From: Hydra vulgaris
Lineage: Eukaryota > Cnidaria > Hydrozoa > Anthoathecata > Hydridae
Reading direction: 5' to 3'
Assembly: GCF_038396675.1 (NCBI RefSeq)
Contig: NC_088921.1
Location: 29,189,501 to 29,253,500 of the forward strand
DNA length: 64,000 nt
The notes under the pieces were generated by a model. The model worked only from the letters and a program-made list of their open reading frames with translations, was not told where the DNA came from and did no database searches. The translations under genes were made by a program, and so were the position numbers. Shown in pieces: positions 2,151 to 63,594 of this stretch. Each line of letters opens with the position of its first letter. Positions within the stretch are counted from its first letter, which is position 1.

Positions 2151-3589
2151 TGTTCTTCTCATAACCTAAACTTAGTTCACGGCGATTTAAGCCTGTTATT
2201 TTATTGTGAGCATGCGCATAAGTTACGTTTGATAAAGTTACAAAAAAAAATGGCGATTAGATTTTTCGGCAAATAATGAAAATTTGTTTTTTTATTTGTT
2301 ATTAATGAGGTACAAATTTCACATGAATAAGTAAGCACAACAAATTTTTGGAATTTTATATCCTTAAGTGTTTAACCTAAATCGTGAAAATAAATGAGAA
2401 TGTTTGTAAACAAAGAAAATATCTCAGTTCAAAATTAAAGGTTTTTTAAGTTTAAAAACTAAACATCTGTCATACAACCTATAGAATATCTTTTGTTTGA
2501 AAATTTTTTGGCCAAAAAGTTTAATTGATTCAAATTCTGTAATAAAAGCAAAAAAAATCTGTATGCTCTGTTTTAACCGATCATTTTTTTAACTAAAATA
2601 AAATGATTTAACGGCAAGCTATGTATATATTCTATACCTTTTTGTGCGTTCTGAAAAAATTTCTTACCACTATAAAAACCTAAAATTGTACAAAGTCTGG
2701 TGTTGTATTATTCAATTCTAACTAAGTAATTATAAACATGTTAAGAGATACATGTATTTATAATTTATGAGATAACACTTGTAATCATTTACTTTAAAAT
2801 GTGTAAGAGATTCCACAGTTATGGAAATTCTAATGTTTGCCCTTAACTTGTAGACATAGATAATGTCATATTTTATTGAGTAACAACTTATAAGATTTAT
2901 GATATTCAAGATATTAACTAGAAAATTTACGTTTAATTGTGTAACGTATTAATTAAACTATAAATATGCAAGACTTAATGTTGTAATGCATAGAAAATAT
3001 TGATTTAAAAATACTTAAACTTCATGCAACATTTTTCTATTGTAATTTTTCATTAAAAAACTAAAAAATGTCCCTCCGATAACTTTTAAACACAAATATA
3101 AATACGAACCTTGTTAAGTCGGACTCTCAAGGGAAATAGATGAAGTTCGATAATAGATAATAGTCCGACTTAGCGAATGTCCTTAAACGAAGCTCTCAGT
3201 ATTTATAGAATGTTCAAAGGAAATTAAATATCTGACTTATCCAGGTCTGAATTTAAGGGGTTCGACTTATCCAGGGTCTGAATTTAAGGGGTTCTACGGT
3301 AGTTTCTACTGATAATACATTTCTTATGCACAATGCTACCTTATAAACTATTTGATTATAAATCCGGGAAATTTTCAACAGCAGTATTAATTATATCAAT
3401 ATATACTTCCATACTATAAAACTTAAAGTACAATTATTTTTTTTTAGTTTTCGGTAATGGTGCAGAATAGGGAGCCATTATTATTATTTTTAAATAATAA
3501 TACATTTCTGAATTATATACTCCTTAGAAAACCTTTTTTTTAAAAGATTGGATTTTCAATACAAATTTGTATACAATAAAATTTAAGAT
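2151..3589. other. No gene seen; AT-rich, 3' flank of the RAG1-like gene
   Basis: Stops in all frames and no recognisable domain. It includes a two-copy 30-bp direct repeat at about 3234-3293. I looked for RSS-like or Transib-like ends here to pair with sequence upstream of 8026 and found none. Confidence 0.5.
3234..3293. repeat. Two-copy 30-bp direct repeat
   Basis: GACTTATCCAGG followed by TCTGAATTTAAGGGGTT occurs twice in tandem with one base inserted. A related GACTTAG phrase lies about 70 bp upstream. Confidence 0.75.
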
Positions 3590-6500
3590 CTAAACATTTT
3601 TTTTTCTTTTTTTTATTTCTGGTTTCATAGCTTTAGCTTTCGGATGGTTTCTGAGATAATGTTCTTTCAGCGTGCTTTTTAAACGACTACAGCCTTTCAT
3701 ATGCCAAAACAAACGATTAAGGTTGTTAAATTCGGCATGTAAACTTTCGCCGCCTTGTTCCCCATAAACGCCAATGCCTAATCCCCATTTCTGAATAAAT
3801 TGAATTACATGGGATTCAAGCAAATGCATCTTTGGAGTTACAGATGCACTTGGCCAAGTCAACCGATAATACTCCATAAGCGTACGGATTGCTAAGTCTA
3901 AAATTAAATAATTTGAGTACTGAAAATCTTTTACACAACTTCCTTTAAATATACTAATCAAATATCTACCTAAAAGCAATCAAGACAATCATGCTCGTTT
4001 GCAAAATTTACTTTTCAATAAGCTCAAAAATGTGTTAAACTCAATCATCAATCTGCTTAAAAAGAAAACCTACCTAATTCTTGAATATCATTCTCTTGAA
4101 AAGATTGCGAGCTGTTCATGAGCTTATGACATTTTGAATAATAATGAAATAACTGCCTAAAATTCTGGCTCACTTTAACAGATAATAAATGAATATCGGT
4201 GCCAATAAAACCAAGAGTTGAGATTAGTTTTGGAATGGAATTGCACAAATCTAACAATGGCTGAGGCTAAAAAAATATTTATAAAATTAAATAATTTTTC
4301 AATATTTTACAACAACAAAAAAAACACTTTTGCATGAGATTAAACTGATTTCTGCGGATTTTTGATCAATTCTAATAACTTTTGTTTTTGTCGACAAGCA
4401 TTAGTTTTTTTCTTGCAATAACCAATTTACTTTTTCTGCTTAATTGTAGTGGATGTAATAAGCAGGGGTGTCTCTAATCCCTCTAATTTGCGAGGATCGG
4501 GTAGTTCAAAACAAAAAATTAGAAAAAAATTAAAGGTTTTATATGAACAATTCGAAAGCCACTTTAGGATTTTTCCCAGTGACCTAATGTTTTTCAATTG
4601 CTGCTTTTCAGAACAACTGTTCCTAATAAAAAAACACATAAAAATATAAATAATATATACTATTAAATAAAAACCTTAAGCATTATGTGAACATGGTTTC
4701 CAACAAAGCATTTTCCATGATAAGCCTGTCTTTCTACTTTATTAGCCTTCAACACTTCATCAAGTTGCTGAATGCAGGGACCTGAAGTTTTATCAAGTAC
4801 GTTTGCTTCATTTAATGAACTTAATTCTTTTATCTAGAAAAATATATTTAAAGTTTTAAAATATAAGCATACATATATAAATTTTTAATAACATTTTTAT
4901 TTAACAAAAATTTCATTTTAAACTTAATTAAACATTTTTGAAAACATAGTTTCATAATAATAAATACCTTGTCGTTTTTTATTAAATCATAGTAAACTAT
5001 TCTTGGTGTATATATGTTCCTAATTTCTTCTGTTTTATCTGGCTCACATATAACCTTTAGAGAAATTGTGTCTTGTAGAAGTGCAATTTTATTGTCACAG
5101 TCTTCAATAACACATTTTACAAAATTGGATTGAACATGCATGTTAACATATTTGTCAAAATCAGCTTTACCAATTATATTATTCTTTAAAGCAAGTTCTC
5201 CAGCAAGCTTTATATCTATTAAGTGGCATTCGTCTTCAAACATGTTGAAAAACTTTAAATAGGTACCCAAAGATATATGTAAAGCAGGTACAGCAACCTA
5301 ACAAAATTTCAAAGGTTTATTAGACTACCAATACTAAACTCATGATTGAACCAACAAAGAGTACTAAAAAGATTAAAAAACAGAAGTGCTAAATTATATT
5401 ACCTGGTCTAGAGGAATATTAAATAAAGTTTCATTAATCACATTGTTGAATAATTTAGCATTTTTCAAATTTCCTCCATTACTTTGAAAACGATGAAAGT
5501 CATTGTTTAAGGAGTTTAAAGACCTTTGTGAAACAACATGCTCTCTACATAATGGAGCTAGTTGGACATCTTTTTTGGTGATGTCACAAAAAAGACAGCA
5601 ATGCCGACCTATGCATAACAGAAATGGTATCAGTATAGTAAGGTTTTCATTGATTTTTAATGTTTTTAAAGTCCTTAAGTTTTCTTGATAAGATTTATTT
5701 ACTTTCTAAAAAAAATGGTTTTTTGTATAAGTGTAATAAAAGCAGAGCAAACTTACCAATAGCTCCTGTAACTCCATATACGCTGCAAAGAAAATCATAA
5801 TCACCAAACATAAAGACACGAAAATTGCAATTTCTAAATATTAATAACTGATAAATAACAATTGAATTGTTAATTATCAGTTATTAATATTTAGAGAAGC
5901 ATAAAAAAATAACAATTTAAATAAATAAAAAGATTATAATTTTGTATAAACTATAATTGCTTTTATCATTGGCATTATAACTTACTGCCATATCATGTTT
6001 TGTATCTCATCAACTTGCGATGTGTAACGAGACAGTCCTACTATAAGGTTAGTTCGATAGTCTTTGGCTTCAAATGTGCTGAACACAGTACTATTTGATT
6101 TTGAGTTAGGTTGATCTTGGTTAACTATTTGATAACTCATTTTAAATGAACCACCTCCATAATCTCCACCAATTTTTATGTGGATTTCATCACACTTTAT
6201 TCCATTTTGTTTTATTAACCTGAAACTTAAAATTAAAAAAAAAACAATAAAAAAAGAATAATAGCTTCGACTCTTTATATGTTTAAGTAAAAAATATATT
6301 AAACTTTATAACCTTTGCAAATATATTAAACTTTATACCTTTGAAGAACATTTAGCCGGTTTTCAATATTTGAAGGTAGATTTTCTATGTATGCCCAGGG
6401 AGCATGTTTGATTTCAAGAGTAGACTTATTATTTTCATTTTGAAATGTAAAATTCTCATCCAACACAATAAGATCATTACCTGCCCAGGTATTTGCAACA

Positions 6501-8026
6501 GCTCTTTGTTTACTGTTAGAAGCAGTCTGGACATTTCTTGAATTCAACCATCTACAATATTTTGTAAGTAAACTTTTTCCTCAAATTAATTTTTTTATTA
6601 TAAAAGCATTAATAAGACATTATTAAAAATTCACTTTAACACATCTTTACATACATTTATGTGTAAACTTTTTTAATAATTGAAATTTCTTTAACTAATT
6701 GAAAAAATATTTTACCTAGACATTGTTTTTAGTTTATTCCATGGTATCCCCACATCAGCTTTAAAGGCAACCAATTCTTCTGCAGAAAACTCAACAACTC
6801 CAACGTTAGCATTTTCCAAAATTTTTCTCTTTTGATTATAATCAAATGATTTTAGCATAACTGCAGTTTGCATTACTTGTGAATCTTTAGAAATTCCAAT
6901 CTGATGACTAACCTCCTCCATTAGAAGTCTGTTTCTTTTTTTAAGCGTACTTGTACTGCATGATGCACTTTCCTTGTAAGCTTTAGGTGTTACAGTTAAG
7001 CAAAGAGGCTTTAAAAAAAGTATATATTTATACATTAAAAATATCATAACAATAATCTATATTATTATGTTTATTTTAAACTTTAGACTAATTCATTTTT
7101 TCCTTAAAATTTTGCATAACGAATTTAATTTTTTTTTGAATACTTACTCTTGGCCCACCAGATGGAAATTCTATTGTAGTTGTTTTCGAATGCTCAAGTT
7201 TGTGCTTAATGACCTGCACGACTGCAGCTTCAATATTTCGAGAGATATCACTTGATTTATTGACTTTATAGAAATCATCAATGATTGTACTATGCTCTCT
7301 CTTTAAATGATCGTTTTGGCAATCATGACATTCATATTTGTCTTTAAAAAGAATTTTTTTTTCACAAAATTTGCATGCTATATATGAATGTTTTATCATT
7401 TCTGATACATGCACAGAACTGCAAAGGTTATTAACCATGATATAGGTTGAACATATAGGACATTTTGCTTCATTTTCTAGTTTACCTTTAATAAGCAATG
7501 CAATGCATCGGCTACAAAAAGAATGCTGACAATCTTTAATCATAACTGGTTGATGCATTATTTTTTCACAAACTTTACAAATACATAATGTTAAATGAGG
7601 ATTAAGCTCAAGATTTAATTCAGAATACTGATCTTGGTTCAAAGGTAAGGGTAAGGATTTTAGAAACAGATTAAGGTTTATTTGCGTCCATCTTTTAAAT
7701 GCTCCTGGTCTTCCTACATTTGGCTTTGGTTTTCGACCAGCTTTACCAAATACACAATTACACTCATTTGCTTGACATTTTAACCAAATTTTTGGTATAA
7801 CATTGAAAGTTTTATTACCTCGGTTTTCATAATTCACCATAGTTGCATTGCATTTCAAACACATTTGTGCTGGATGAACATCTAAACAATCTTCAGCAAT
7901 ATTTATTTTAAAAATATTATAAATTCTATCACGCCTACTGATGGTTTTTATAGAGTCTTTTCCAGTCAAATTTCCACAAATTCTGCATACTCTCAGTAAT
8001 TTTTGTTGATGTTTTTCAGCCATCAT
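3590..8026 (-). CDS. RAG1-like recombinase/transposase, ten exons, apparently intact
   Basis: Exons (minus strand): 8026-7148, 7008-6716, 6551-6339, 6219-5986, 5833-5757, 5608-5403, 5297-4968, 4833-4675, 4266-4074, 3897-3590. Every junction has GT..AG and the phases join to one 963-codon frame; vertebrate RAG1 is about 1040. Residues 14-60 resemble the RAG1 N-terminal zinc region (CRICGN, then VHPAQMCLKC). A C3HC4 RING lies at C150, C153, C166, H168, C171, C174, C189, C192. GGPR at 290-293 aligns with the GGRPR start of the nonamer-binding region. The core keeps D481 (GGDYGGGSFK), D551 (FGDYDF), zinc pair C570/C573, histidines H886/H891, and E912 (GGESLH). D551 to C570 is 19 residues, as in human RAG1 D711 to C730. 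Motif recognition and splicing are seen; DNA-cleaving ability is inferred. It could be a domesticated gene or an intron-bearing RAG-like transposon. Start chosen at the first ATG (8026); an AG acceptor-like site just upstream allows a 5' non-coding exon. Confidence 0.9.
4273..4674. other. Intron 8 of the RAG1-like gene, open on both strands by chance or from an insert
   Basis: About 400 bp lie between exons 8 and 9. A stretch near 4427-4649 is open on both strands. Splicing it in at the AG near 4628 would put an in-frame TGA after four codons. Exon 8 joins exon 9 directly in phase 0 (HIMLK to PQPLLDL), which gives the expected protein, so I treat this segment as intron. Confidence 0.6.
5834..5896. 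repeat. Hairpin containing the exon 5 acceptor of the RAG1-like gene
   Basis: CTAAATATTAATAACTGATA on the left is matched by TATCAGTTATTAATATTTAG on the right, separated by about 20 bases that are themselves partly palindromic. On the minus strand the inner copy ends in the AG that must be used as acceptor for exon 5. The acceptor is therefore in the stem. Confidence 0.8.
6292..6344. repeat. 26/27-bp tandem duplication spanning the exon 3 donor
   Basis: AAATATATTAAACTTTATA plus CCTTTG occurs twice in a row (6292-6318 and 6319-6344). On the minus strand this repeats the donor context CAAAG|GTATAA as CAAAG|GTTATA 27 bases into the intron. Use of the second site would add a TAA stop. Confidence 0.75.
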
Positions 8027-8499
8027 CAAAATGAAGATTTTATAAAAACCTCTTGACTAAAAAATGAAAATATATTTCATAAAAAAATGATCGGTTATAG
8101 AAACTAAAATTTTTTGAGAGACGATTAACAATATTTTTATTAAAAACTAACCCAAATACCATAAAAATTTTATTTCGTCAATAATTAGCATCTATGACAT
8201 AGACTATGTAAAGTGTTAGTTTAGGTAATATTCCAGTTAAAAGTTAATTAATTAAAGTGGATGTTTAAATATATTTTTCACATTGATTTTATGCTTAAAC
8301 TAACTCATTTACGTAAAATTTCATTTTATGAGTCAAAATATTAGCAACCATTAAAATATTGTCTTTAAAAACAGAAAACAAGGTTGAATCATGATATACA
8401 AATTGAACACGCAAAATATAAAATTAGATAACAGAGTATTTGTAACAGACGCATGCGCATAATAAAATCCCAAGCTTTCATAAGTATTGAATCACCGTG

Positions 8500-8555
8500 A
8501 TTGGCTTCGACGGCATCATTAACAACTAGTTGTTAATGATGCCGTCGAAGCCAAT
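8500..8555. repeat. 56-bp perfect palindrome
   Basis: Starting ATTGGCTTCGACGGCATC and reading to the centre in ACTAGT, the sequence is the exact reverse complement of itself with no spacer. The arms contain CpG dinucleotides, which are rare around it. It lies about 475 bp upstream of the RAG1-like start codon. Confidence 0.9.
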
Positions 8556-9159: not shown

Positions 9160-9396
9160 GAACTTGTTTATTTGTCAAGTTTTTAGAACTTAAGCTTGTT
9201 TACCTGCCATGTTTTTAAAACACTTGTTTGTTTGCCATGTTTTTAAAACACTTGTTTGTTTGCCATGTTTTTAAAACACTTGTTTGTTTGCCATGTTTTT
9301 AAAACACTTGTTTGTTTGCCATGTTTTTAAAACACTTGTTTATTTGCCATGTTTTTAGAATTTAAAACACTTGTTTATTTGTCAAGATTGTAACTT
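9160..9396. repeat. 28-bp minisatellite
   Basis: About six near-identical units of GCCATGTTTTTAAAACAC plus TTGTTTGTTT follow each other, flanked by diverged units (TTGTCAAG replacing TTGCCATG) that continue to about 9520. There are no spacers, so it is not a CRISPR array. Confidence 0.9.
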
Positions 9397-10243: not shown

Positions 10244-11548
10244 AGGCATGCTATCGGAAAAATTTGCCCACCTTTCTTGATCAAAAAAGGATGTAAGAAA
10301 GATTAAATGTATTTAAATCAATATATTTCTGAAAAATTAAGACTGTAAAGATTACATATTAATAGGTAAAAAACAAAAAAAAAATTAAGTTTTACAGAAA
10401 ATTCTGACTTTCTTTTTGATGCCTCCCATAAGTTTCTGGACAGAGTGATTTTTGTAAGTTTTAGCAGCGTAATCCCATTTTCTTTTCAAATCTGTAGCTG
10501 ATTTTACTGTTTTTCCACTTAATTTCAATTTCTTTTTTATGATGGCCCAATATTTTTCAATAGGACGTAATTCGGGGCAGTTTGGAGGATTCATCTTTTT
10601 TGGAACCAACATCACTCCATTATCATCGTAAAACTTTTGAGCATCTTTTGAGTAATGCATTGTGGCTAAATCAGGCCAAGACAATACTGAAGTACTTCTA
10701 TGAGCTTTAATTAGTCGTTTTATACGAGAAAGACAACATTTCACGTATTCCGAAGATTTCATTGTGCCCAAACAAACATGAATTGGCGATTTTTTGCCGC
10801 AAGAGCAAAGTGCCTGCCAAATCATCAATTTTTTCGAAAATTTATCAGTCATTACATACTTGTATTTATCACTCACATTTCCTCTTATTTTAGAAGCATA
10901 GTAGCACTGCCCAGGAATTTGTTTAAAATCCATTTTAACATAAGTTTCGTCATCCATCAAAATGCATCCATTATGTTTTGTTAACAAGTTATCATACAAC
11001 TTTCGAGCTCGACTCTTTGCGGTTGAATTTTGTTTATCGTTTCGATTTGGCATTTTAACTACTTTAAAACTTTGATATCCAAGTCTCTGTTGCCATTTGT
11101 GTACAAAAAAATTGGAAACCTTCAGTTTTTTTGCTCAATATCTATCAGACCAATCAGGATGTTCTTCCAATGAAGTCTCCAACCGTTCGAGAGCTCTAGG
11201 ATTTGCTGTGCGTTTTTTTCGACCACTTCCTTGTTTTCTCTGAATAGTTTTCTGTTCTGTAAACCGTTTAAGAACAGTATCTACAGTTCTTCTTGATATT
11301 TTTAATGGTTTCGCCAACTTTCTATTCGATAAAGTTGGATTTTTTAAGTGTTTGTCCACAATCAAAATTTTTTGTTTAGTTTGCTCGATTGACATTTTGA
11401 AACTAAATAATATTTTTAATTATTTTTTTCTGCCAAAATGTTCTATTATACAAACACTACCACACACTAAAAAATAATTTCAAAAAACGACCGTTAACTA
11501 GCTTTACCACACCGCAAAAGTTGGGCAGATTTTTCCGATAGCATGCCT
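10244..11548. mobile_element. Tc1/mariner element with both ends and TA target site
   Basis: Terminal inverted repeats AGGCATGCTATCGGAAAAAT at 10244 and its reverse complement ending at 11548 match over about 30 bp (next TYTGCCCAMC). Each end abuts a TA dinucleotide (10242-10243 and 11549-11550), the canonical target duplication. At 1305 bp the element is full length for the superfamily. Near-identical TIRs and a single ORF lesion suggest recent insertion. Confidence 0.92.
10385..11395 (-). pseudogene. Tc1/mariner transposase, one nonsense codon
   Basis: A single frame of about 336 codons runs from the ATG at 11395 to 10385 and is broken only by TGA at 11137-11135. The N-terminal half has the paired helix-turn-helix: SNRKLAKPLKISRRTVDTVL, then after the stop AKKLKVSNFFVHKW. 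The GRKKRT linker resembles the GRPR-type motif between the two. Catalytic residues are visible as the Asp in LMDDETY, the Asp in SWPDLATMHYS and the Glu in LRPIEKYW. The second and third are separated by 37 residues, pointing to a DD37E-type lineage rather than classic DD34E. The element boundaries enclose it exactly. Confidence 0.9.
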
Positions 11549-17121: not shown

Positions 17122-54908
<37,787 letters not shown>

Positions 54909-60469: not shown

Positions 60470-61720
60470 CAAAACTTTCCAGACTTGATTGCTCTTTGTG
60501 AAACTAATTTAAATTTGGTTGTTCCTTCTTCGTATTAATGAGATACTATCTTTTGATTCACAAAGACTCCAATAGTAAGTTGGCTTAGAGGTATACAAAT
60601 CAATTCAATGTCGAGAAATCAGGTTTCAATCTTTTGACCATTCTTTTATGCGCTTCCGCTTAGCATTACTTCACTGTTACATTTCTCTTTGTTTTTTATC
60701 GTTCACCTACTTTGACTGCACTCTTTAGATGTAATTTCTGATCGAATTGACCATGCCCTTTATCTTTACCCCACTGCCAATATTGTTGTTACTAGTGACT
60801 TTAATGCTCAACACACTGAATGGCTTGGCTCTAACACCATTGACCTTGCTGGCACTAAAGTCTATAATTTCTGCATTTCTTAATCTCTTACTCAGATAGT
60901 TAACTTTGCGACTCCTTTTCCATATAACCTTTATCACTTACCTTCACTCCTTGATTTGTGACTTGTCTCTGAAACTAGCTTGTGTTCAGTTTCTTCTTTT
61001 TTTTTTCTTTAGGTGGTTCTTATCATTCAATGATCTCTATCCTTCATCTCGCACTTCTTCTTTGGACTCACCAAAGCTGACTGAGATTCTTTTTGTGATT
61101 TTCTTTGTGACGGTCCTTGGCCTGACGTCTTTTCTCACTCTGTTAATAAAACCTCCTATGTAACCTACTGGATTCAGACAGGAATGGAAGCTTTTATTCC
61201 TTCTTGTCAGCTTCAGGTCATTCTACTCCATGTTTTCCACCTTTTGCAGTTGCTATAACTAATCGAAATCAATTTTTATCTTTCTAAAAAGAACAACTCT
61301 TTTGAAACTAAACATTTATTATTGCAAAAAATCAATTGTAAAAAGGTGGTGTCTGATGCTAAGTTCTATTATTCTCAATTTACTAAATCTCATATCTTAT
61401 CTCAGAAGTTAGGCTCAAGAGAATTTGGAAAATCGTCAACAGCGTCATAAGCAAAGATCTAACATTCCATTTTTCATTCATGGGACTGATCTTATCGATC
61501 TAAATTTTAATTTTCCTGATGTTGCATTTGATGAACTTTTACCAATAGATCACTGTTTTGAGGTTTATTTCATTGGATCACAAAAAAACCTCCCGCACCT
61601 AGCACCTCACCACTCTTAACTTTTTCGATTCTTTACTTGATTTTGTTCCCGTTCTTACTTCCTTATGCTTGACTTTGATTTTTAAAACTGTAAATATATA
61701 ATATTGTATATTGTATAGTT
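60470..61720 (+). pseudogene. LINE endonuclease region (Jockey-like), broken
   Basis: LIALCETNLNLVVPSSY (about 60490-60540), TSDFNAQHTEWLGSNTIDLA (about 60795-60860), SLTQIVNFATPF and NLYHLPSLLDL (60885-60960) are apurinic-endonuclease motifs of Jockey-type LINE ORF2. AD*DSFCDFLCDGPWPDVFS and SYVTYWIQTGMEAFIPS follow (61075-61205). Frame changes and stops occur every 100-200 bp. The RT domain is absent; a different element begins at about 61.8 kb. Confidence 0.75.
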
Positions 61721-61800
61721 GTTCATATCATTTAAACAATTTTTGTTTATTTGCGGTATTAATTTGCAAGATCTGCTGTTTAGTGCTTCTTTTTGAAAAT

Positions 61801-63594
61801 ATGTCCTTTAAAAGTAAAAAGTCAAAATCAGCAGTGGAAGCAGCTGGTGAAATGTGGACACAAAATTTGAAATCAAGCACGAAGCGCCGTCCTAATATAC
61901 CACAGGTAAAACAGGATATGAGCGACAAATTGTGTAAAATGCTTTCCAACAGAGATATCGTTGGAAGATTCTTGGGACTTTTTGATGAATTGAAAGGACG
62001 ACATGATCGACTAACAAAAATATCCGAGGAATTGATGAATCTTTGGCAGAAGTTTAATTTTCCTGTTCCTTCTAAACAACAAGTGTCTGCTAATGTTGAC
62101 AAACTTATCACATCATTTGAGAAACACAGAAAGCGACCAAATGCAGTATTTGAAGAAAATTTTGCTAATCTGTTCGATATAACAAAACCAGATGGAAATT
62201 GGCTTTTTAGTGAGGACAAACAACTGTACAAAGTACAAACTGAATCAGATGGCAGGGTGGGATATACAACTATGAAAGTGGCTCCTATGTCAACAATCCA
62301 TCCATCAAAAAGGGCCAAAAGCACATCAGAACCCTCGACAAACCAAGCGGTTATCTCCGTACCACTTTCCTGCGATAGTGAGGATTCTGAGGAAGGAAGC
62401 AGCAGTGGTGACTCGGAGGCAGTTCCAAGAGAATCTCCCAGAAAGCATGCAACACGCCAGTCAACTAAGTCTGCTGCCAAACTAGTTTCTAGTCACTCTT
62501 TGTCAACCAGAAAAACGTCACGGGTTCTTCAAAGTCTGGCTGAGGATGGAGTTTGTGTCCCAACACCATCACAGTCTGGAGTCTGGCGTCAAACAATCAA
62601 AGATGCAGAACAAGTTAAGAACCGCCTCATGGAACTGATCTTTGAAGAGAAATTTTCTTTGTATTTTGATGGTAAGAAAATTGACAAGACTGAGTACCAA
62701 GCTGTGTGCTTGAAAAATGACAAAAGAACATTAAAATTTGGCATTTTGGTTTGTGACAGTGGATCCTCTGCAAACATATATAAAGCACTACAGGACCTAC
62801 TTGATGATTACAATGCATGGAACAGTATTCAGATGATCATCTCTGACACAACAGCTGTAAATACTGGTGGCAAGAATGGAGTTGTAACCAAGCTTCAGAA
62901 AACATTTCGAGACAAGGGATTCGATGAACCTCAATACATCGGCTGCCAACACCATATTCTTGATCTTGTTCTATGACATATGTTAGATTTCTTTTTTCCT
63001 ATACAGTCAAAGTCGCCTAACATTAACTACAAATTTATTGATGAGATTATGGAGCATTATGATGATTTAAAAAATGCCTACAAGGGCACAGCAGTGGTAG
63101 CATAGTACGAGAACCTTGGGTGGAGAGATGACTTTAAATTTCTTTTTCAGCTTTGTGAAGCATACAAGTTTTACAAAAATGAGGAAAAATGGCCTCGTAT
63201 CAAATGGCACAAGCTGCCATCACTGCACAGTGCCAGGTGGAACTCAAGAGGCATTTTTGCGTTTATTGCATTTTTCATTCTTCCAAACTGGCGAGAACAG
63301 CTTAGGATAACTTGCAATTTCGTTGCAACTACATGGTTGCGGGCCTGGTTTTCAAACCAGCACTATGCAGAGGCGGCTTATGAAGACCCGCTGTTAGCAA
63401 TATCACAACTTAAGTGTTCCAAAGCTGTGAAATGCTTCTCTACCCACTGGAAGAAGGAACCATCAGTGCTTGATGTGCCTCAATCCAACATAGTAGCAGA
63501 GAGAGCTGTAAAGTTGATGGAGGACATTCGTTCTTCTTGCAGAACAAACAAATATCTTAACTGTAAATTTATTAATACTAATACACAAATCTGA
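61801..63594 (+). pseudogene. Transposase-like gene with two nonsense codons
   Basis: A single frame of about 598 codons starts at ATG 61801 (MSFKSKKSKSAVEAAGEMWT) and ends at TGA 63592-63594, interrupted only by TGA at 62974-62976 and TAG at 63103-63105. Motifs include LWQKFNFPVPSKQQV, NWLFSEDKQLY, a Ser/Glu-rich linker, FSLYFDGKKIDKTEYQ (first Asp), MIISDTTAVNTGGKNGV (second Asp), IGCQHHILDLVL (zinc-like C and H), ARWNSRGIFA and SNIVAERAVKLMEDI (candidate Glu). The TGA replaces a probable Arg codon (CGA to TGA). The pattern is hAT-like, but the family, widespread in aphids and Hydra, is not one I can name. The low lesion count implies recent inactivation. Confidence 0.75.

Follow-up and report, generated by a model that had tools for sequence, protein, structure and literature searches.

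The 64,000-nucleotide stretch of Hydra vulgaris DNA analysed here, referred to as the window, covers positions 29,189,501 to 29,253,500 of contig NC_088921.1 (assembly GCF_038396675.1). On its minus strand lies a ten-exon gene, originally predicted to be a full-length RAG1-like gene, enclosed in a larger element (Table 1). Comparison with related sequences indicates that the gene very probably encodes a Chapaev transposase, and that the DNA transposon to which it belongs has terminal repeats of its own and is present in multiple copies. The 6.3-kb element itself appears, with equally high probability, to be an autonomous-type transposon that has moved recently in Hydra vulgaris.

Table 1 Features of the element and its gene. 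Positions are those of the window; residue numbers are those of the 963-codon product; TSD, target-site duplication.
Feature	Position	Strand	Remark
Whole Chapaev-type transposon, 6,322 bp, CAC...GTG ends	2178..8499	-	proposed from the window, then matched by near-identical genomic copies
5' terminal repeat, 50 nt, long spacer	8450..8499	-	in gene sense CACGGTGATT, 23 nt gap, TTTATTATGCGCATGCG
3' terminal repeat, 39 nt, short spacer	2178..2216	+	CACGGCGATT, 12 nt gap, TTTATTGTGAGCATGCG
TSD copy at 3' end	2174..2177	.	AGTT on + strand
Probable second TSD copy, AGTT	8528..8531	.	inferred; 28 bp away from 5' end
28 bp separating 5' end from TSD	8500..8527	.	exact inverted copy of flank 8528-8555
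Exon 1, 293 aa	7148..8026	-	Chapa/RAG1-type zinc region, RING, further conserved Cys/His, GGPR
RING finger, residues 150-192	7451..7579	-	Pfam zf-C3HC4, E 2.8e-07; fold search of exon 1
Exon 2	6716..7008	-	junctions common to P0001
Exon 3	6339..6551	-	junction with exon 2 common to P0001
Exon 4	5986..6225	-	originally 6219-5986; acceptor 6 nt upstream likelier
Codon of D481, first catalytic Asp (KIGGD)	6162..6164	-	column invariant in 21/21 rows
Exon 5	5757..5833	-	junctions common to P0001
Codon of D551, second catalytic Asp (FGDY)	5800..5802	-	column invariant in 21/21 rows; hhalign column of RAG1 GYD
Exon 6	5403..5608	-	zinc pair C570/C573
Exon 7	4968..5297	-
Exon 8	4675..4833	-
Exon 9	4074..4266	-
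Exon 10	3590..3897	-	H886, H891, E908, E912, stop
Codon of E912, presumed third catalytic acid	3746..3748	-

The gene, its boundaries and its sister copies

Splicing of the ten exons of the original prediction gave exactly 963 codons and a stop, with GT...AG borders at all nine introns, and D481, D551, C570, C573, H886, H891 and E912 were found in the product at the positions claimed for them. Exon borders were compared with P0001 (LOC124815234), a predicted gene model of another Hydra vulgaris copy with 98.8% identity over residues 157-963, and agreed with it at the shared junctions, exon 4 excepted. P0001 and P0002 both have two additional residues (SF) at the join of exons 3 and 4, so the acceptor of exon 4 probably lies 6 nt earlier and the likely product has 965 amino acids. 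Five in-frame acceptors are available for exon 10 in the window sequence, giving products of 961-987 amino acids; P0001 has the one originally chosen.

The ends of the element were first spotted by eye, as two weakly matching inverted stretches near 2189 and 8477 that had CAC on their outer sides. A simple local-alignment scan ranked the true ends low (score 31 against a shuffle mean of 35). In a scan permitting unequal spacers, 2178/8499 was the only end pair starting with CA that flanked the gene, and 3 of 300 shuffled flanks gave any pair, which is not a blind test because the thresholds were set after the site had been seen; placement of the ends was decided by later agreement with other copies. 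An earlier candidate for a terminal inverted repeat, TAACCGATCATTTTTTTA at 2574 and 8097, was rejected, as both its copies lie about 400 bp inward of the element's ends. This sequence forms an exact 18-bp inverted pair (2574-2591 and 8080-8097) and recurs with two mismatches at 53170-53187.

The exon-1 protein had at least 138 genomic matches, six of them (the window included) at 99-100% across all 293 residues. Six other full-length copies (L009-L013 and L015) were 99.6-99.8% identical to the window copy, L010 with an extra insertion, and all six retain the 18 splice dinucleotides. The alignment breaks exactly at 2178 and 8499 in five of these sister copies, which are bordered by exact 4-bp TSDs (TTTT, TTAA, TATT, GTGA and GTTA); L015 is without the outermost 5' bases. 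L014 is an older copy, 92-96% identical in pieces. The multiple copies and transposon ends rule out a single-copy or domesticated gene, and the notion of a RAG1 gene standing alone had to be given up.

Positions 8500-8555, adjoining the 5' end, form a perfect 56-bp palindrome with the presumed TSD AGTT just beyond its centre. The 28-bp inverted duplication of host flank is read as an insertion or repair event and not as part of the element.

In another group of copies, L033 and L034 have one internal deletion in common, from within exon 1 to about exon 5. Both belong to a cluster of elements at 0.2-8.5 Mb of contig C2, several of which measure about 4.6 kb end to end. Elements of this kind are probably a non-autonomous derivative that multiplied.

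Domains of the predicted product and placement in Chapaev

The protein matched the Pfam model DUF1280 (PF06918) with an E value of 2.8e-13 and 50.5 bits (cutoff 25). DUF1280 has been identified as the Chapaev transposase and, within the RNase H-like superfamily, assigned to the same clade as RAG1 (PMC3985635), and the hallmarks given for Chapaev are CAC...GTG termini and duplications of 3-4 bp (PMC4079192). Such termini and a 4-bp TSD were found here, and the placement in Chapaev is based on them together with the DUF1280 match. Some Chapaev transposases have a Chapa domain, a zinc-finger region common to RAG1, which is followed by a RING in two subgroups (PMC4411706). The product has this subgroup architecture, a RAG1-type zinc region and then a RING, matched by hhalign at 99.9% over 229 columns. 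This architecture was already known, and the element belongs to a known type. The N-terminal zinc region, the RING and the cnidarian origin had all been recognised correctly; a complete N-terminal-plus-core gene outside jawed vertebrates, which had been considered informative, is not new, because the Chapa and RING N-terminus on Chapaev transposases was published in 2015 (PMC4411706).

The RING models were matched in the profile search, but the Pfam RAG1 core model (PF12940) gave no match to the protein at E up to 1, and when the PDB was searched with a profile of the family, allowing E up to 10, neither a RAG1 core nor a Transib chain appeared. Mouse RAG1 core as query, by comparison, reached amphioxus RAG1L at 1e-80 and HzTransib at 0.003. 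On the Pfam result and the PDB profile searches together, a core of the RAG1 clade was rejected. The RAG1 importin-binding model (RAG1_imp_bd) scored 19.5 (E 8e-4), below its cutoff of 23.3; it is above the cutoff in the relative P0006 (28.3 against 23.3) and present in some relatives outside Hydra, such as P0040 of Antedon and P0066 of Branchiostoma. The cysteine motif (CCGHC) of the C-terminal tail (CTT) was not found, and aligned family members have no Cys or His beyond the core.

Structure prediction gave a core fold of the RAG1 type, which agrees with the original reading. E908, four residues upstream of E912, is as conserved as E912. The spacings of 19, 5 and 21 residues between catalytic and zinc residues had been given correctly; they do not single out RAG1, because the C(2)C and H(3-4)H motifs are common to EnSpm, Mirage, Chapaev, Transib and RAG1 (PMC12730594). 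The GGPR motif, taken to start a region like the nonamer-binding domain (NBD), is present, and a phmmer match to zebrafish RAG1 (E 6e-4, residues 148-299) crosses it, but the region around GGPRP is poorly predicted (pLDDT, the per-residue confidence of the model, about 49-69) and falls outside the range of the structural alignment.

A search with the window protein gave 28 matches, 19 of them named Hydra vulgaris. With the core profile there were 115, including sponges, corals, hydrozoans, echinoderms, amphioxus, hemichordates and a nemertean, and RAG1 was not among the names listed for them, of which some were truncated and many missing. The gene is well beyond chance, with its core conserved across Hydra paralogues, sponges, echinoderms and amphioxus, the importin-binding model recurring in relatives outside Hydra, and the substitution ratios of exon 1 given below. 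Thirteen Pfam RAG1 domains were counted in H. vulgaris in 2020 (PMC7642931), so RAG1/Transib-type genes may exist elsewhere in the genome, which has no bearing on this locus.

Terminal repeats with unequal spacers

The ends were compared at 25 loci, 24 regions and the window. At 18 of them both ends could be located; the other seven (L014, L015, L018 and L023-L026) were left out because one end was absent, degenerate or beyond the stretch compared. An exact 4-bp TSD was present in 16 of the 18 elements, the exceptions being the window copy and L028, which has a degenerate 3' end. In every element the outer 10 nt matched at 8-10 positions and the inner 20-mer at 16-20 (mean of 900 shuffles 11.8, largest 16). 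In all 18 the end on the gene's 5' side had its inner motif 10-12 nt deeper than the opposite end, the difference being 11 nt in subfamily A, 10 in B, 10 in C, 11 in E, and 11 and 12 in F.

A first end pattern, in which gaps of 2-32 nt were allowed, was then searched genome-wide and gave 127 matches (reversed-pattern control, 0). Lengths among the 100 listed were 39 nt (47 ends), 49 nt (21), 50 nt (31) and 46 nt (1). A pattern for subfamily B gave 23 matches (control 0), of which 15 measured 49 nt and 8 measured 39 nt. Among the matches listed, inward-facing neighbours within 12 kb always combined one long and one short end (27/27 for the first pattern, 6/6 for subfamily B; 33/33 together). 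Wherever an exon-1 match lay inside, the long end was on the gene's 5' side (22/22 and 4/4); five and two pairs, respectively, had no internal exon-1 match. The gaps of 12 and 22/23 nt in the first pattern depend on the motif borders chosen, and because these borders are arbitrary only the difference of 10-11 nt carries weight.

No report of a one-turn asymmetry between Chapaev ends came up in the literature searched, which did not extend to Repbase reports, where it may already be recorded. The word stem "asymmetr" is absent from PMC4079192, PMC4411706 and PMC12730594, three papers treating Chapaev, and the passages on end asymmetry in PMC8355894 and PMC8289069 discuss it for Transib and ProtoRAG only.

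Proposed mechanism, alternatives and relation to RAG systems

The best-supported mechanism is cut-and-paste transposition by a DDE (Asp-Asp-Glu) enzyme with a RAG1/Transib-type fold. The transposase would bind each of the two bipartite ends by its outer CACGG motif and its inner motif, cut beside CAC with D481, D551 and E912 on an RNase H fold of this type, and insert the element at a target cut with a stagger of 4 bp. At the N-terminus, the Chapa zinc region and the RING may be accessory, serving in targeting, dimerisation or as a ubiquitin ligase, as for RAG1. With less assurance, the unequal ends may favour synapsis of one end of each kind, since the end on the 5' side of the gene has a spacer longer by about one helical turn and since the arrangement is analogous to the 12/23 recombination signal sequences (RSS) and to ProtoRAG, whose activity depends on asymmetric ends (PMC8289069). 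The synaptic complex would then prefer to pair a long end with a short one, and a 12/23-like rule would operate without RAG2. That a RAG2-free transposase with a RAG1 N-terminus and fold, and without the tail of invertebrate type, reads ends one turn different under such a rule is put forward tentatively, as a possibility with the balance somewhat against it.

Several observations weigh against these interpretations. When the N-terminal part was compared with single PDB sequences, generic RING ligases came out on top (RNF125 at E 1.3e-6, RAG1 at 6e-4), and the Chapaev placement depends on DUF1280, the termini and the TSD. The window copy's own 5' junction is irregular, with the 28-bp inverted duplication ahead of the TSD. 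Of the seven near-identical copies, just two, those of the window and L009, have both an open frame and all splice sites, which leaves present mobility uncertain. The spacer asymmetry is inherited within lineages, representing perhaps six independent subfamilies, several with related repeats.

This last point leads to the most serious alternative, which we consider to have nearly an even chance: the asymmetry may be a functionless frozen accident, the unequal ends of one ancestral element having been passed to its descendants. The copies are related and share descent, so the 33 pairs are not independent events, and subfamilies A, D and E have end sequences in common. However, the 10-12 bp difference is also seen in B, C and F, in which the end letters differ and the exon-1 proteins agree with that of the window at only about 28-41%. 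Lengths among the matches listed were confined to 39 or 49/50 nt, with a single 46, despite the range of gaps allowed, and the multiplied deletion derivative L033 still has one end of each type.

It is improbable that the element is a dead remnant whose frame is open by chance. A single internal stop interrupts four of the six sister copies, one of which also carries a frame shift, and a fifth has many stops, but ten exons, 18 splice dinucleotides and 965 codons are intact in the window copy and one more, the copies differ by only 0.2-0.4% in aligned positions, and the ratio of nonsynonymous to synonymous substitution (dN/dS) between subfamilies is below 0.45 (0.23-0.44 for exon 1 in nine comparisons). 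Least probable, and largely refuted, is a true RAG1-like (RAGL) transposase or domesticated RAG1 homologue: RAGLs are known from other cnidarians (PMC7204232) and the product has a RAG1-type N-terminus, the predicted fold and all DDE and zinc residues, but the core matches DUF1280 and not PF12940, its profile lacks the PDB matches that mouse RAG1 core obtains, the TSDs are of 4 and not 5 bp, neither the CTT cysteine motif nor a RAG2-like open reading frame of at least 70 amino acids was found, and multiple copies with transposon ends speak against domestication.

For the Chapa and RING combination, Kapitonov and Koonin (2015, PMC4411706) cite earlier work by Kapitonov and Jurka (2007), and N-RAG-TP of Aplysia was reportedly described by Panchin and Moroz (2008). 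Chapaev elements with Chapa and RING resemble the Hydra element in zinc region, RING and DDE core, in CAC...GTG ends and in TSD size; the passages on them in PMC4411706 do not mention a spacer difference between the ends, as found in Hydra. N-RAG-TP is likewise a transposon bearing the RAG1 N-terminal region, described in PMC8355894 as N-terminal-like sequence only, whereas in Hydra a complete core follows. RAGL/ProtoRAG elements share the RAG1-type N-terminus and fold, CAC ends and end asymmetry (27/31 bp in ProtoRAG) with the Hydra element, but have a convergent RAG2L gene, a CTT with the cysteine motif and, in ProtoRAG, a 5-bp TSD in place of 4 bp (PMC7204232, PMC8289069). In the Hydra element, the 1.4-kb interval that separates the gene from the 3' end is overlapped by two open reading frames of at least 70 amino acids, neither with a Pfam match, shorter exons not having been searched. 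Transib elements also combine a RAG1 fold with the absence of RAG2, and some have 12/23-like or otherwise asymmetric ends (PMC9435367, PMC8355894); they differ in their 5-bp TSD and are described as being without the RAG1 N-terminal region (PMC8355894), and HzTransib gave no sequence match to the Hydra family profile at the PDB threshold above. Vertebrate RAG1 with its 12RSS and 23RSS shares the N-terminal zinc region, RING, fold, DDE residues, lack of the CTT cysteine motif and spacer difference of about one turn, but is a single host gene acting with RAG2, unlike the ten-exon transposon gene of Hydra.

V(D)J recombination owes its order to the 12/23 rule, the origin of which is an open question. 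In one review, 12/23 asymmetry beyond V(D)J is ascribed to some Transibs only (PMC8355894). If a RAG1-like protein without RAG2 does read ends one turn different, a laboratory animal would offer a simple and recently mobile element in which to study both the RAG1 N-terminal region and the pairing rule, and Hydra would provide a system for testing a 12/23-like rule. In that case the pairing rule and NBD-type reading of the inner motif would either predate RAG2 and the split between RAG1 and Transib or be independent of them. As a caution, a RING, a RAG1-like zinc region and DDE residues in an invertebrate do not by themselves make a RAG1 gene.

Other features were seen elsewhere in the window. 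Just outside the transposon, positions 9162-9357 hold a tandem array of 6.9 copies of a 28-bp unit. Two open frames at 10385-11419 on the minus strand together resemble, by eye, a Tc1/mariner-type transposase interrupted near 11134. Near the right edge, long open frames of 424 and 162 amino acids at 61702-63594 on the plus strand resemble another transposon-type protein.

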